Below, one piece after another: positions 60,022 through 63,665 of a DNA stretch of 64,000 nt; within the stretch, counting starts at the first letter, position 1; every line of letters starts with the position of its first letter. The notes under the pieces were generated by a model that saw only the letters and a list, made by a program, of their open reading frames with translations, searched no databases and was not told where the DNA came from. The stretch is from Phaeacidiphilus oryzae TH49 (GTDB taxonomy: Bacteria; Actinomycetota; Actinomycetes; Streptomycetales; Streptomycetaceae): positions 6,095,801-6,159,800 of the forward strand of contig NZ_JQMQ01000005.1 of the NCBI RefSeq assembly GCF_000744815.1. Direction: 5' to 3'. The position numbers were made by a program, and so were the translations under genes.

Positions 60022-60486
60022 TCATCCCTCCATCGGCTCGTCCGCGGTGATCGGCCGTCGGGGGAGGGGGCTGGAGTAGACGACGCTGGTGGTGATCGCG
60101 CCGAGGCTCGCGATCCGGCCGGTGACCTGCTCCAGATGGCGCATGGAGCGGGCGACGATCTTGAGGATGAAGCAGTCCTCGCCGGTCACGTGGTGGGCCT
60201 CGATGACCTCCGGGGTGGTGTCCAGGAGGTCGTGGAAGGGCTTGTAGTTGCCGTGCGGATAGCGCAGCCGGGCGAAGGCCATCACGGTGAGGCCGAGCCG
60301 CTCCGGGTCCACGACGGCGGAGTAGCCGGCGATGATCCCGCTCTCCTCCAGTCGGCGGACCCGCTCGGTGACGGCGCTGGCGGACATCGAGACGGTGCGG
60401 GCGAGTTCGGTGTAGCCGGCCCGGCCGTGCTTCTGCAGGGCGTCGAGGATGCGGAGATCGGTGGCGTCCGGGGAAACGGCGGTCAT
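60022..60486 (-). CDS. Lrp/AsnC-family transcriptional regulator
   Basis: A 154-residue Lrp/AsnC protein: HTH at residues ~10-50 (LDALQKHGRAGYTELARTVSMSASAVTERVRRLEESGII), linker, then the RAM domain (FARLRYPHGNYKPFHDLLDTTPEVIEAHHVTGEDCFILKIVA). It probably senses an amino acid. It is divergent from the rhodanese gene and is the likely regulator of it, as in many actinomycetes where these two genes are paired. Confidence 0.92.
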   Translation of the reverse strand: MTAVSPDATDLRILDALQKHGRAGYTELARTVSMSASAVTERVRRLEESGIIAGYSAVVDPERLGLTVMAFARLRYPHGNYKPFHDLLDTTPEVIEAHHVTGEDCFILKIVARSMRHLEQVTGRIASLGAITTSVVYSSPLPRRPITADEPMEG

Positions 60487-60579: not shown

Positions 60580-61056
60580 ATGACGATCACAGCTGCCAGT
60601 CCCGCCCTGCGGACCCCGCCCGCGGCGCCCGCCGAGGCCGCCGCCTTCTTCGCCTCGCGCCTCGCCTTCCAGGCCGACGTCGCCGACGTGCAGGCCTCAG
60701 TGGCCTCCGGCCGCCCCGGCTTCGTCCTGGTGGACTCGCGCGGCCAGGAGGCCTGGGACCAGGGCCACGTCCCCGGTGCCGTCCACCTTCCCACCGCCGA
60801 GATCCCGGAGCGGGCCGCCGAACTCCTCGACCCCGCCGTACCGGTGATCACCTACTGCTGGGGCCCCGGCTGCGACGGAGCCACCCGCGCGGCCCTCGCC
60901 CTGGCCCAACTCGGGTACCGGGTCAAGGAGATGATCGGGGGCATCGAGTACTGGACCCGGGAGGGCTTCCCGGTCGAGACGGCGACCGCCGGCGTCCGCG
61001 CCCGGCCGGCGGACCCGCTCGTCGCCCCGACCGGTGGGGACGGCTGCGGCTGCTGA
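60580..61056 (+). CDS. Rhodanese-like sulfurtransferase with a C-terminal CGC tail
   Basis: A 158-residue rhodanese domain protein. VDSRGQEAWDQGHVPGAVHLP is the N-terminal motif. The active-site loop is CWGPGCDGATR with Cys93 as the sulfur acceptor and Cys98 five residues on. The chain ends GDGCGC, an added Cys pair. It would move sulfane sulfur or detoxify thiols. It is divergent from an Lrp/AsnC regulator; the sulfur-linked leader region at 62 kb lies a gene away. Confidence 0.92.
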   Translation: MTITAASPALRTPPAAPAEAAAFFASRLAFQADVADVQASVASGRPGFVLVDSRGQEAWDQGHVPGAVHLPTAEIPERAAELLDPAVPVITYCWGPGCDGATRAALALAQLGYRVKEMIGGIEYWTREGFPVETATAGVRARPADPLVAPTGGDGCGC

Positions 61057-61096: not shown

Positions 61097-61924
61097 TCAG
61101 CGGCGCTCGTAGGGGATCTGCTCGCCGGCCTCGATCGGCAGCGGGAGGCGGTTCTCGGCGGGCGGCAGGGGGCAGGTGGCGAAGTCGGTGTAGGCGCAGG
61201 GGAGGTTGACCGCCCGGTTGAAGTCCAGCACCACCGTGCCGTCGGCGGCGGGCGCGGGGATGGAGAGCGAGCGGTTGGCGGCGTAGGTGGTCACCCCCGA
61301 GGTGGCGTCGGTGAAGAGCACCAGCAGGCTGCCGGGGGCGTGGCCGTCGAACGCGGTCAGGCTCAACTCCTGTCCTTCCAGGGTGAATTCGATCCGCCCC
61401 GGGGCCTGGTAGACGTGCTGGAGGCCCTCGACCGCCGCGCCGACGGTGGTCGGGCGCGGCTCGTCGAACGGCGTGTACCGGCCGGTCACCGCCCAGCGGG
61501 GGTCGGGGGCGTAGGCGGGGGTGCCGCGGTAGTCGGCGCGCAGGGGGTGGTCCGGGTGGCGGGGGCGGACGATGTCCTGGCCGCCGCGGCGGGCGACCTC
61601 GATCACCGCGTCGCCCCAGACCGCCTGGACGCCGCCGCGCTCGGGGACGGGCCCGAAGGCGTGCCGGCCGCGGACGGGGGCGCCGTCGACGAGGAGCTCC
61701 TCGCCTTCGCCGAGCTCCACGACGACGCCCTCGTCGTCCGTGGACCAGAGGCCGGGGGCGCCGGGGATGGGCTGCGGCTCGGCCGTCGGCCAGTGGAGGC
61801 CGGTGACGGCGAGGAAGCCGTGGGCGTCGGCACGGACCTCCTCGTGGCGGCGGTGCCAGGCCTCCCAGTCGGCGGCGAAGGCGGTGGCGGGGGCGGCGGT
61901 GGCGGAAACCTGATGAGTGGTCAT
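61097..61924 (-). CDS. DUF1684 domain protein
   Basis: A 275-residue DUF1684 protein: FAADWEAWHRRHEEVRADAHGFLAVTGLHW, GRYTPFDEPRPTTVGAAVEG, and DFNRAVNLPCAYTDFATCPLPPAENRLPLPIEAGE near the C-terminus are typical. The family is uncharacterised and widespread in actinobacteria and bacteroidetes. GGGAAG lies 5-6 nt upstream. A Cys-leader-like element 117 bp upstream on the same strand may control it. Confidence 0.9.
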   Translation of the reverse strand: MTTHQVSATAAPATAFAADWEAWHRRHEEVRADAHGFLAVTGLHWPTAEPQPIPGAPGLWSTDDEGVVVELGEGEELLVDGAPVRGRHAFGPVPERGGVQAVWGDAVIEVARRGGQDIVRPRHPDHPLRADYRGTPAYAPDPRWAVTGRYTPFDEPRPTTVGAAVEGLQHVYQAPGRIEFTLEGQELSLTAFDGHAPGSLLVLFTDATSGVTTYAANRSLSIPAPAADGTVVLDFNRAVNLPCAYTDFATCPLPPAENRLPLPIEAGEQIPYERR

Positions 61925-62040: not shown

Positions 62041-62112
62041 TCAGGGCCGACAGAGCGAGGCGGCGACACGGAGGAGATCGACGTGCCGGCGGGAGCGGAG
62101 GCGGAGGGGGCA
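62041..62112 (-). CDS. Cys-type leader peptide, start apparently displaced by a frameshift
   Basis: The C-terminal 16 residues RRHVDLLRVAASLCRP followed by a stop match the actinobacterial putative leader-peptide consensus (R-R-H-V/I-D-L-x-R-x-x-S-x-x-C-R). No ATG or GTG is in frame nearby. A GTG at 62113-62111 is one base out of frame, because the five-G run at 62106-62110 is one longer than needed; with one fewer base it would give a 23-residue leader. This may be a sequencing error or a decayed leader. Confidence 0.45.
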   Translation of the reverse strand, partial: CPLRLRSRRHVDLLRVAASLCRP

Positions 62113-62547
62113 CCGGGGGCGATCGTCGCCGGGGCTGAACGCCGCACCGCCACTGCCATCGCCTTCACCGCCCTCACCGTTCGGCCCGCCGAATCGGGCG
62201 CCGTCGAGACGTGCAACCCCGGGCCGCCGCGAGCCATTCCACGCTGCCGCTGCCGCTGCGCCGCCGATGCCGGACGCGATCGAAAGGTAGGCACGGCGGC
62301 CGAGGGCTGTCAACGGCGGGTGCCCGGGCGCGAGCCGGGGCCGCCTTGCTGCTCAACGCGTGCTTGACGGCCCGGCGGAGGGTGTTCAGACTGGTCCGGA
62401 CGGTCACGACAGTCAGCGCCCGCCGCCACGGCGGGTAATCGGCCCCGGCCCGCTGACGGGCAACCCTTCCACCGCGACGGGGTGCCCCGGGTGACGACCG
62501 GGTTCCGCCGAAGCGGCGGGGCAAGCGCGACGACGGGATCGGTGGAG

Positions 62548-62670
62548 ATGGCCGGCAGGGGCAGCGGCAGGGCTCGTGAAGCCCGCAGGCCACTCGTCCG
62601 TTCGGTCCTCACCCGCCGCCTCCACATCGATCTGCTGCGGGTCTGCAGCGCGTTCGGCAGAGCGGGCTGA
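62548..62670 (+). CDS. Cys-type leader peptide, plus strand
   Basis: A 40-residue open frame ends VLTRRLHIDLLRVCSAFGRAG, again the leader-peptide signature but with the usual final Cys replaced (Cys is at RVC instead). The ATG at 62548 is preceded by GGTGGAG directly, so the true start is uncertain. Two small hairpins follow the stop and the GST-like gene lies 195 bp downstream. Confidence 0.5.
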   Translation: MAGRGSGRAREARRPLVRSVLTRRLHIDLLRVCSAFGRAG

Positions 62671-62702
62671 CGCCGAGCTCCGGCGGCGCACCCCGTCCGG
62701 GG
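62671..62702 (+). promoter_or_regulatory. Hairpins directly after the plus-strand leader
   Basis: CGCCG-AGCTC-CGGCG (62671-62685) and CCCC-GTCC-GGGG (62691-62702) follow the leader stop immediately and could act in attenuation of the downstream gene. Confidence 0.35.
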
Positions 62703-62864: not shown

Positions 62865-63665
62865 ATGCCCGAGTCCCTGCTCGACGCCGCCTCGTCCACC
62901 GCCCGCTTCCGCGACCGGATCGGCGCCGGCGACGCCCCCGACCCCCACCGCTACCAGCTCTACCTGCGCCTCGGCTGTCCGGGCTCACTCCGGGTCTCGA
63001 TCACCCTCGAACTGCTGGGCCTCCACGAGGCCATCGCCACCACGCCGCTGACCCCCGCGTCGAAGACCGTCACCGCGGACCAGGCGCTGCTCCGCCGCGC
63101 CTACGAGTCCACCCAGCACCACTACGCCGGCCCCCTCAGTGTCCCCGCGCTCTGCGACCGCTGGAGCGGGCGGGTGGTGAGCAACCATGTGCCGGACATC
63201 CTGGACGACCTCGCGGACCGTTTCGCCGCCGCCGCTCCGAAGCCCCAGGGCGGCGGGCGCGTCCTGCCGCTCCGCCCGGCCGCGCTGGCCGGCGACATAG
63301 CCGAACTGCGGACCCTCCTCGACGGGTCCGTCACCCAGTCGGCCCGCCGGGCCGCCCTCGCTCAGGGGACGCGCCGCCGCGAGGAGGCGCTGCGGACGCT
63401 GCTGGGCGCCCTGGACGAACTCGACCGCCGCCTCGCCGCCCACGGTCAGGAGTACGCGCTCGGCAGCGAACTCACCGCCGCGGACGTCGACTTGTGGTCG
63501 GCCCTGGTCGGCCTGCGCACCGCCAGGCTGAGCCGCCGCGGGGGCGACGGCGCCGACACCGAGGCGGCCAGGAGGACCATCGACGGCCACCACCGCCTCT
63601 GGTCCTACGTCGACCGGGTCACCGCCGCCCACCCGGCCTTCCGGGCCGCCGCGCGGGCGAACTGA
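62865..63665 (+). CDS. Glutathionyl-hydroquinone-reductase-like (ECM4/Xi-class) GST-fold protein
   Basis: A 266-residue GST-fold protein. YQLYLRLGCPGSLRVSI replaces the YqjG/ECM4 motif ACPWAHR, keeping the catalytic Cys-Pro but losing the Trp. VPALCDRWSGRVVSNHVPDILDDL matches the cis-Pro region. The C-terminal helical domain includes ELTAADVDLWSALVGLRT. Actinomycetes use mycothiol rather than glutathione, so the thiol partner is uncertain. GGAGAG is 5 nt upstream. It lies downstream of a Cys-type leader. Confidence 0.85.
   Translation: MPESLLDAASSTARFRDRIGAGDAPDPHRYQLYLRLGCPGSLRVSITLELLGLHEAIATTPLTPASKTVTADQALLRRAYESTQHHYAGPLSVPALCDRWSGRVVSNHVPDILDDLADRFAAAAPKPQGGGRVLPLRPAALAGDIAELRTLLDGSVTQSARRAALAQGTRRREEALRTLLGALDELDRRLAAHGQEYALGSELTAADVDLWSALVGLRTARLSRRGGDGADTEAARRTIDGHHRLWSYVDRVTAAHPAFRAAARAN

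Follow-up and report, generated by a model that had tools for sequence, protein, structure and literature searches.

Cys-rich leader ORFs of mycobacteria were reportedly described by Canestrari in 2020. Leader peptides without terminators were noted before cys genes in 2005 (PMC1262725), and also in mycobacteria (PMC4633059). Like the locus analysed here, these mycobacterial leaders comprise a short ORF before sulfur genes and no evident terminator, but the leader peptide described below has no Cys run, conserves Arg, His and Asp, and is coupled to a riboswitch. Members of the family NF042934 (cis_reg_atten) have an RRxH[IV]DLxR core, a stop a few codons later and a position before sulfur genes, all of which are shared by this locus. 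SAM-IV riboswitches (RF00634; Weinberg 2008, as cited in passages of PMC8269248 and PMC9481103) resemble the present element in having a full aptamer above the gathering score, directly 3' of a promoter and linked to a sulfur gene in an actinomycete. However, known SAM-IV riboswitches stand alone, for example before a cysteine desulfurase (PMC8079986), whereas at the present locus aptamer and gene are separated by a conserved, translated leader peptide; PMC8079986 lists both SAM-IV and leader peptides, but not in front of the same genes. The SAM-II leader of metA in Sinorhizobium meliloti (PMC9373788) is similar in that a SAM riboswitch adjoins a ribosome-binding site and AUG other than the gene's own start and exerts control at a distance, but its AUG1 is in frame with metA, it has no separate conserved peptide, and it belongs to another riboswitch class. 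Tandem riboswitch logic gates (PMC9481103, PMC5912903) likewise have two sensors per leader, with NOR-like logic possible; the passages searched of the review PMC9481103 mention no peptide partner, and SAM-IV occurs there in the reference list only. Within the literature searched, known riboswitch logic gates pair aptamer with aptamer, whereas the second sensor proposed here would be a translated peptide.

The window, a 64-kb stretch of DNA, contains in the gap between a GST-like gene and a DUF1684 gene what are probably two divergent leaders under sulfur control, the plus-strand one composite and the minus-strand one broken. It seems likely that a two-input leader, responding to SAM and to a peptide-sensed signal, controls a sulfur-scavenging thiol enzyme here, beside a broken divergent leader. 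The features, with the evidence for each, are:

61097 to 61924, minus strand: DUF1684 gene, 275 aa (Pfam PF07920)
62041 to 62159, minus strand: disrupted divergent leader peptide (alignment with 14 divergent leaders)
62284 to 62313, minus strand: putative divergent promoter TTGACA-N18-TACCTT (likeness to the site of one relative)
62364 to 62392, plus strand: promoter TTGACG-N17-CAGACT (directly 5' of the riboswitch; block kept in relatives)
62402 to 62533, plus strand: SAM-IV riboswitch aptamer, RF00634 (covariance-model score, full model)
62548 to 62670, plus strand: leader peptide (LP) ORF MAGRGSGRAREARRPLVRSVLTRRLHIDLLRVCSAFGRAG, 40 aa (homologous loci and pN/pS)
62865 to 63665, plus strand: GST-like gene with predicted Xi-class fold, 266 aa, ribosome-binding site CTGGAGAGAGCC (GST_C_2, phmmer, AlphaFold/Foldseek)

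LP-type C-termini occur just twice in the window, both in the gap and at the two stops where the initial annotation had placed them: the plus-strand peptide ends in LTRRLHIDLLRVCSAFGRAG (stop ending at 62670) and the minus-strand peptide in RSRRHVDLLRVAASLCRP (stop ending at 62041). Dinucleotide shuffles of the gap did not yield even one such motif (0/3000). In NCBIfam, NF042934 ("putative leader peptide") was the top match of both copies, with 24.9–25.8 bits for the plus copy and 22.9 bits for the minus copy, yet both scores lie just below the curated cut-off of 27 bits; an orthologous LP at the same gene reaches 31.8 bits, above it. The view that these are leader peptides of the sulfur type is supported, and the genome has further copies before sulfur genes. 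The SAM-IV riboswitch, which had been overlooked, is the sole Rfam element at gathering score in the window; matches to Rfam microRNAs were discarded as chance hits (E > 1).

The minus-strand leader matches the divergent leaders of 14 named relatives (ending in VRLYSRQHIDLLRVAGALCRP); in the cases with mapped downstream genes, these encode NtaA/DmoA-type monooxygenases. The spacing between the plus-strand and the divergent leader is about 510 nt in several relatives and 523 nt in the window. Each leader has its own counterparts in relatives; the divergent pair is therefore an old arrangement, and the duplication that had been suggested is not supported. The start region of the minus leader (ATG at 62159, behind AGGGCGGTGAAGGCG) is one base out of frame with its C-terminus RRHVDLLRVAASLCRP. 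From this ATG to the His codon at 62085 there are 74 nt, whereas the 14 aligned leaders have whole codons, typically about 25, so that the suspected frameshift is real relative to relatives; candidate sites of the break are the C-runs at 62106–62110 and 62115–62119. The putative divergent promoter is very similar to TTGACACGCCCTCGGTGCCGTGCCTACGGT, which precedes the divergent leader in Actinacidiphila glaucinigra (L167); no other relative was found to have the site. A TTG start of the minus ORF at 62313 was rejected, being the –35 hexamer of this promoter. The minus leader is the apparent counterpart of the leader driving the FMN-monooxygenase operons of relatives, and here faces DUF1684 with its frame either lost or interrupted by a sequencing error. 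There is a real, if minor, chance that it still works, the break being an error of sequencing or assembly within a C-run, with DUF1684 under an intact leader: one base would bring the distance to the His codon back to the usual value of about 25 codons, the core is kept, and the promoter resembles that of L167, but the assembly reads otherwise, and DUF1684 orthologues are mostly without a leader directly upstream, many being inside operons. The leader here may therefore be the relic of a lost operon. For the same reason, a leader specific to DUF1684 was rejected.

The plus-strand riboswitch scored 68.9 bits (gathering score 38) over positions 1–116 of the RF00634 covariance model, and 103 bits with a family-specific model that was partly built from the window sequence. 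Of 40 aligned loci, about 90% have a TTGACG...ACACT block before SAM-IV, and most of the loci that lack SAM-IV have it before the LP; a generic sigma-70 scan gave no hit. Transcription presumably starts at the 5' edge of SAM-IV, and the aptamer of the window would bind SAM and switch expression off. The distance from the aptamer end to the LP start is about 15 nt in the window and about 36 nt in most relatives, and in many loci the LP starts at a near-fixed distance 3' of SAM-IV, with a conserved GGGAYCGGTGGAGATG block. The ATG at 62548 is preceded by GGGATCGGTGGAG, a block shared with relatives. Anti-Shine-Dalgarno pairing 3' of SAM-IV is not conserved. Pairing of GGUCUC (3' of SAM-IV) with GGGACC (5' of the LP), seen by eye in several relatives, was rejected; it is absent in L142, L162, L180, L193 and the window. 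Divergent SAM-IV pairs, about 100–250 nt apart, occur in L104 (9127–10722), L098 (9146–9562) and L149/L150/L151; one member lies in the GST leader and the other faces away, in L104 towards a cystine-type ABC operon. L104 has a third SAM-IV directly 3' of the GST ORF.

GTDB genomes were scanned for the GST-like gene, and 80 homologous loci were obtained, spanning Streptomyces, Actinacidiphila, Embleya, Yinghuangia, Streptacidiphilus and Streptantibioticus. Among the 76 loci with at least 700 nt of upstream DNA, to which the count was restricted, the LP is present upstream of the GST-like gene in 67, compared to 24 of 747 other genes at the same loci. The plus copy is thus strongly kept upstream of its gene; a lack of conservation in related genomes, which the initial annotation had named as evidence against the leaders, was not observed. 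SAM-IV was detected upstream of 39 of the 80 GST-like genes by the family-specific covariance model, and in all 39 the LP comes after it, while 28 loci keep the LP without SAM-IV. In contrast, no LP followed SAM-IV in any of 28 other SAM-IV loci sampled from family genomes, most of which precede a gene with a cysteine-desulfurase-like product; the composite leader is therefore specific to the GST-like gene among those examined. The second SAM-IV of the own genome (L009) also stands before a cysteine-desulfurase-like gene, without an LP. In dozens of named Streptomycetaceae species, riboswitch and peptide are paired in a fixed order, and the peptide sequence is kept even without cysteine.

In the maximum-likelihood tree of GST proteins, one clade of 47 rows has SAM-IV+LP in most members, and the other, of 34 rows, mostly has the LP only. 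The window falls in the former, inside a subset with 96/91 support, although its protein forms a long branch, which makes this placement less sure. Two loci inside the SAM-IV clade, L172 and L177, have promoter and LP but no SAM-IV. The promoter block is common to both sets, lying directly 5' of SAM-IV in one and of the LP in the other. Since promoter and LP also occur without SAM-IV, the riboswitch behaves as a putative module placed between promoter and peptide; a single gain or several losses would both fit.

Within the LP core RxHIDLLR, pN was 0.063 and pS 0.462 (pN/pS 0.137; 51 distinct sequences, picked by motif and thus biased toward low pN), as against a pN/pS of 1.09 in the stretch N-terminal to it. 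Synonymous codons vary, with six codons for one invariant Arg, two for Asp and three for Ala. Such synonymous freedom beside amino-acid constancy argues for translation of the LP and for selection at the level of the peptide, not of the RNA. The plus copy is, like NF042934 members, a short conserved ORF upstream of a gene that is sulfur-linked by its neighbours in relatives. Both copies had been regarded as imperfect; however, the minus copy alone is frame-disrupted, and the "missing final Cys" of the plus copy is no defect, as orthologous LPs at the GST-like gene usually end alike.

A classical pair of cysteine attenuators, in which Cys codons near each stop would stall the ribosome at low Cys-tRNA and thereby open the downstream gene, the riboswitch being incidental, appears doubtful. 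The position in RV-C/S-SA is occupied by Cys in 34 and by Ser in 22 of 62 distinct LPs, and by Cys in the window; the same NCBIfam family precedes cysO-cysM and cysteine dioxygenase in the own genome, and Cys-rich leaders lie upstream of mycobacterial cys genes (PMC1262725, PMC4633059). Yet invariance is seen at R, H, D and the second R but not at Cys, and 21 of the 67 LPs, and thus many members linked to the GST-like gene, have no Cys from five residues before the His to the stop (HIDLLRVSSAY at the end), with the rest of the LP kept; moreover, no terminator was found in the gap. Of the "small cysteine-responsive regulon" and the attenuator initially proposed, the sulfur-type leader and the further copies before sulfur genes stand, but a purely cysteine-responsive control does not agree with these Cys-free peptides, nor with a plus-strand mRNA that appears to start with SAM-IV.

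The GST-like ORF starts 194 nt 3' of the LP stop, and this distance ranges from about 80 to over 200 nt among loci. No intrinsic terminator was found in the gap, a hairpin 5' of the GST start and ribosome-binding site pairs in most sequences with no covariation beyond shuffles, and RNAalifold detected nothing there. Having neither a terminator nor a covarying hairpin to link peptide and gene speaks against the two-input reading. That the LP is a mere coupling or re-initiation device loading ribosomes, with SAM-IV as the sole sensor, would suit the near-fixed SAM-IV-to-LP distance in many loci with its conserved block and the control of translation at a distance by SAM-II in S. meliloti metA (PMC9373788), but is improbable given the 28 loci that keep the LP without SAM-IV, the selection on its sequence and not just its presence, and the variable distance to the GST start.

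The GST-like protein has a GST_C_2 domain and phmmer matches to Xi GSTs/YqjG. Its AlphaFold model (pLDDT 86.6) predicts an Xi-class fold, the best Foldseek matches being annotated Xi GST/GHR structures of the PDB (E about 1e-12, TMq about 0.7). Cys38 is invariant in 19 homologues, in a CPGSLR/CPxSLR motif that differs from the CPWAxR-type of Xi-class GST/glutathionyl-hydroquinone reductase. Neighbours of the gene in relatives encode NtaA/DmoA and other LLM (FMN-dependent) monooxygenases, a flavin reductase, a cystine-type ABC transporter and a GNAT acetyltransferase. This set is reminiscent of the S-(2-succino)cysteine (scm) pathway of Bacillus subtilis, which likewise uses an acetyltransferase and an FMN monooxygenase (PMC12757645). 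As the GST gene of relatives lies beside or inside operons for FMN-dependent monooxygenases and cystine-type ABC transporters, its product likely frees or uses thiols from S-substituted compounds.

Both genes flanking the gap look sulfur-linked, because DUF1684 orthologues, too, belong to FMN-monooxygenase operons, contrary to the initial annotation, in which they had been described as not usually listed as sulfur-controlled. FMN-monooxygenase/flavin-reductase partners occur within 1.5 kb of DUF1684 orthologues in 20 of 29 loci. In L104, whose gene order equals that of L154 (Actinacidiphila oryziradicis), GST, four LLM monooxygenases, flavin reductase and DUF1684 form one co-directional run. 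A leader subtype, FSRRHIDF.RTAGALCP, precedes flavin reductase-DUF1684 in L220 and L230, which supports a sulfur role for this DUF1684 clade. The composite leader connects sulfur scavenging with DUF1684 and with a family of Xi-type GSTs that is unstudied.

Of the possible readings, a NOR-like two-input leader agrees best with this anatomy. Transcription would start at the 5' edge of SAM-IV, and the 40-codon LP would begin just after the aptamer. High SAM would shut the leader at the riboswitch, which adjoins the ribosome-binding site of the LP, or by termination. At low SAM the ribosome would translate the LP, and a second signal would then decide on expression of the downstream gene; we infer this signal to be the supply of sulfur amino acids, or a ligand that the nascent chain, RRxHIDLLRVxSA, senses. 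The GST-like gene would be fully on only under sulfur shortage. It is a tentative idea, and a somewhat unlikely one, that the SAM-IV module was inserted between a promoter and a sensor peptide that both predate it, forming a natural two-input gate whose nascent chain reads a sulfur signal with no need for Cys codons. If the two-input reading is true, soil bacteria would integrate two sulfur signals before a thiol-handling enzyme is turned on. The composite leader also makes testable what the widespread, unexplained "putative leader peptides" of actinobacteria sense.

In the own genome (7.8 Mb), a strict LP pattern matched 4 places and a relaxed one 20, whereas the reversed controls matched 0 and 5, respectively; both lists rest on DNA patterns and give minimal counts. 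At least five more LPs are present, before cysO-cysM, an SsuE-like FMN reductase, two FMN monooxygenases, and the genes of a cysteine dioxygenase and a rhodanese. The monooxygenase operon of this genome is located on another contig (C4) and is thus separate from GST and DUF1684. In this monooxygenase/ABC operon (L289, 8297–13876, on the 0.89-Mb contig C4), a leader-like ORF ending in VNTEQPLVIRGHIDFGRVWSAACCR lies on the opposite strand, ahead of genes for an FMN monooxygenase, a GNAT protein and ABC proteins. Within the window, a rhodanese-like protein (PF00581) with a C-terminal GCGC is encoded at 60580–61056 on the plus strand, two genes from the leader; no LP or riboswitch was found in front of it, so that it is at most a candidate member of the sulfur unit. 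An Lrp/AsnC-type regulator gene (60022–60486, minus strand) is divergent from it. The LP before the cysteine dioxygenase and rhodanese genes (L291, 4873–5824, about 1.338 Mb on contig C5) ends in MATRTRLIRRLHVDLQRVSTAACTAY; for a leader of this family, a position in front of a gene for cysteine degradation is unusual.
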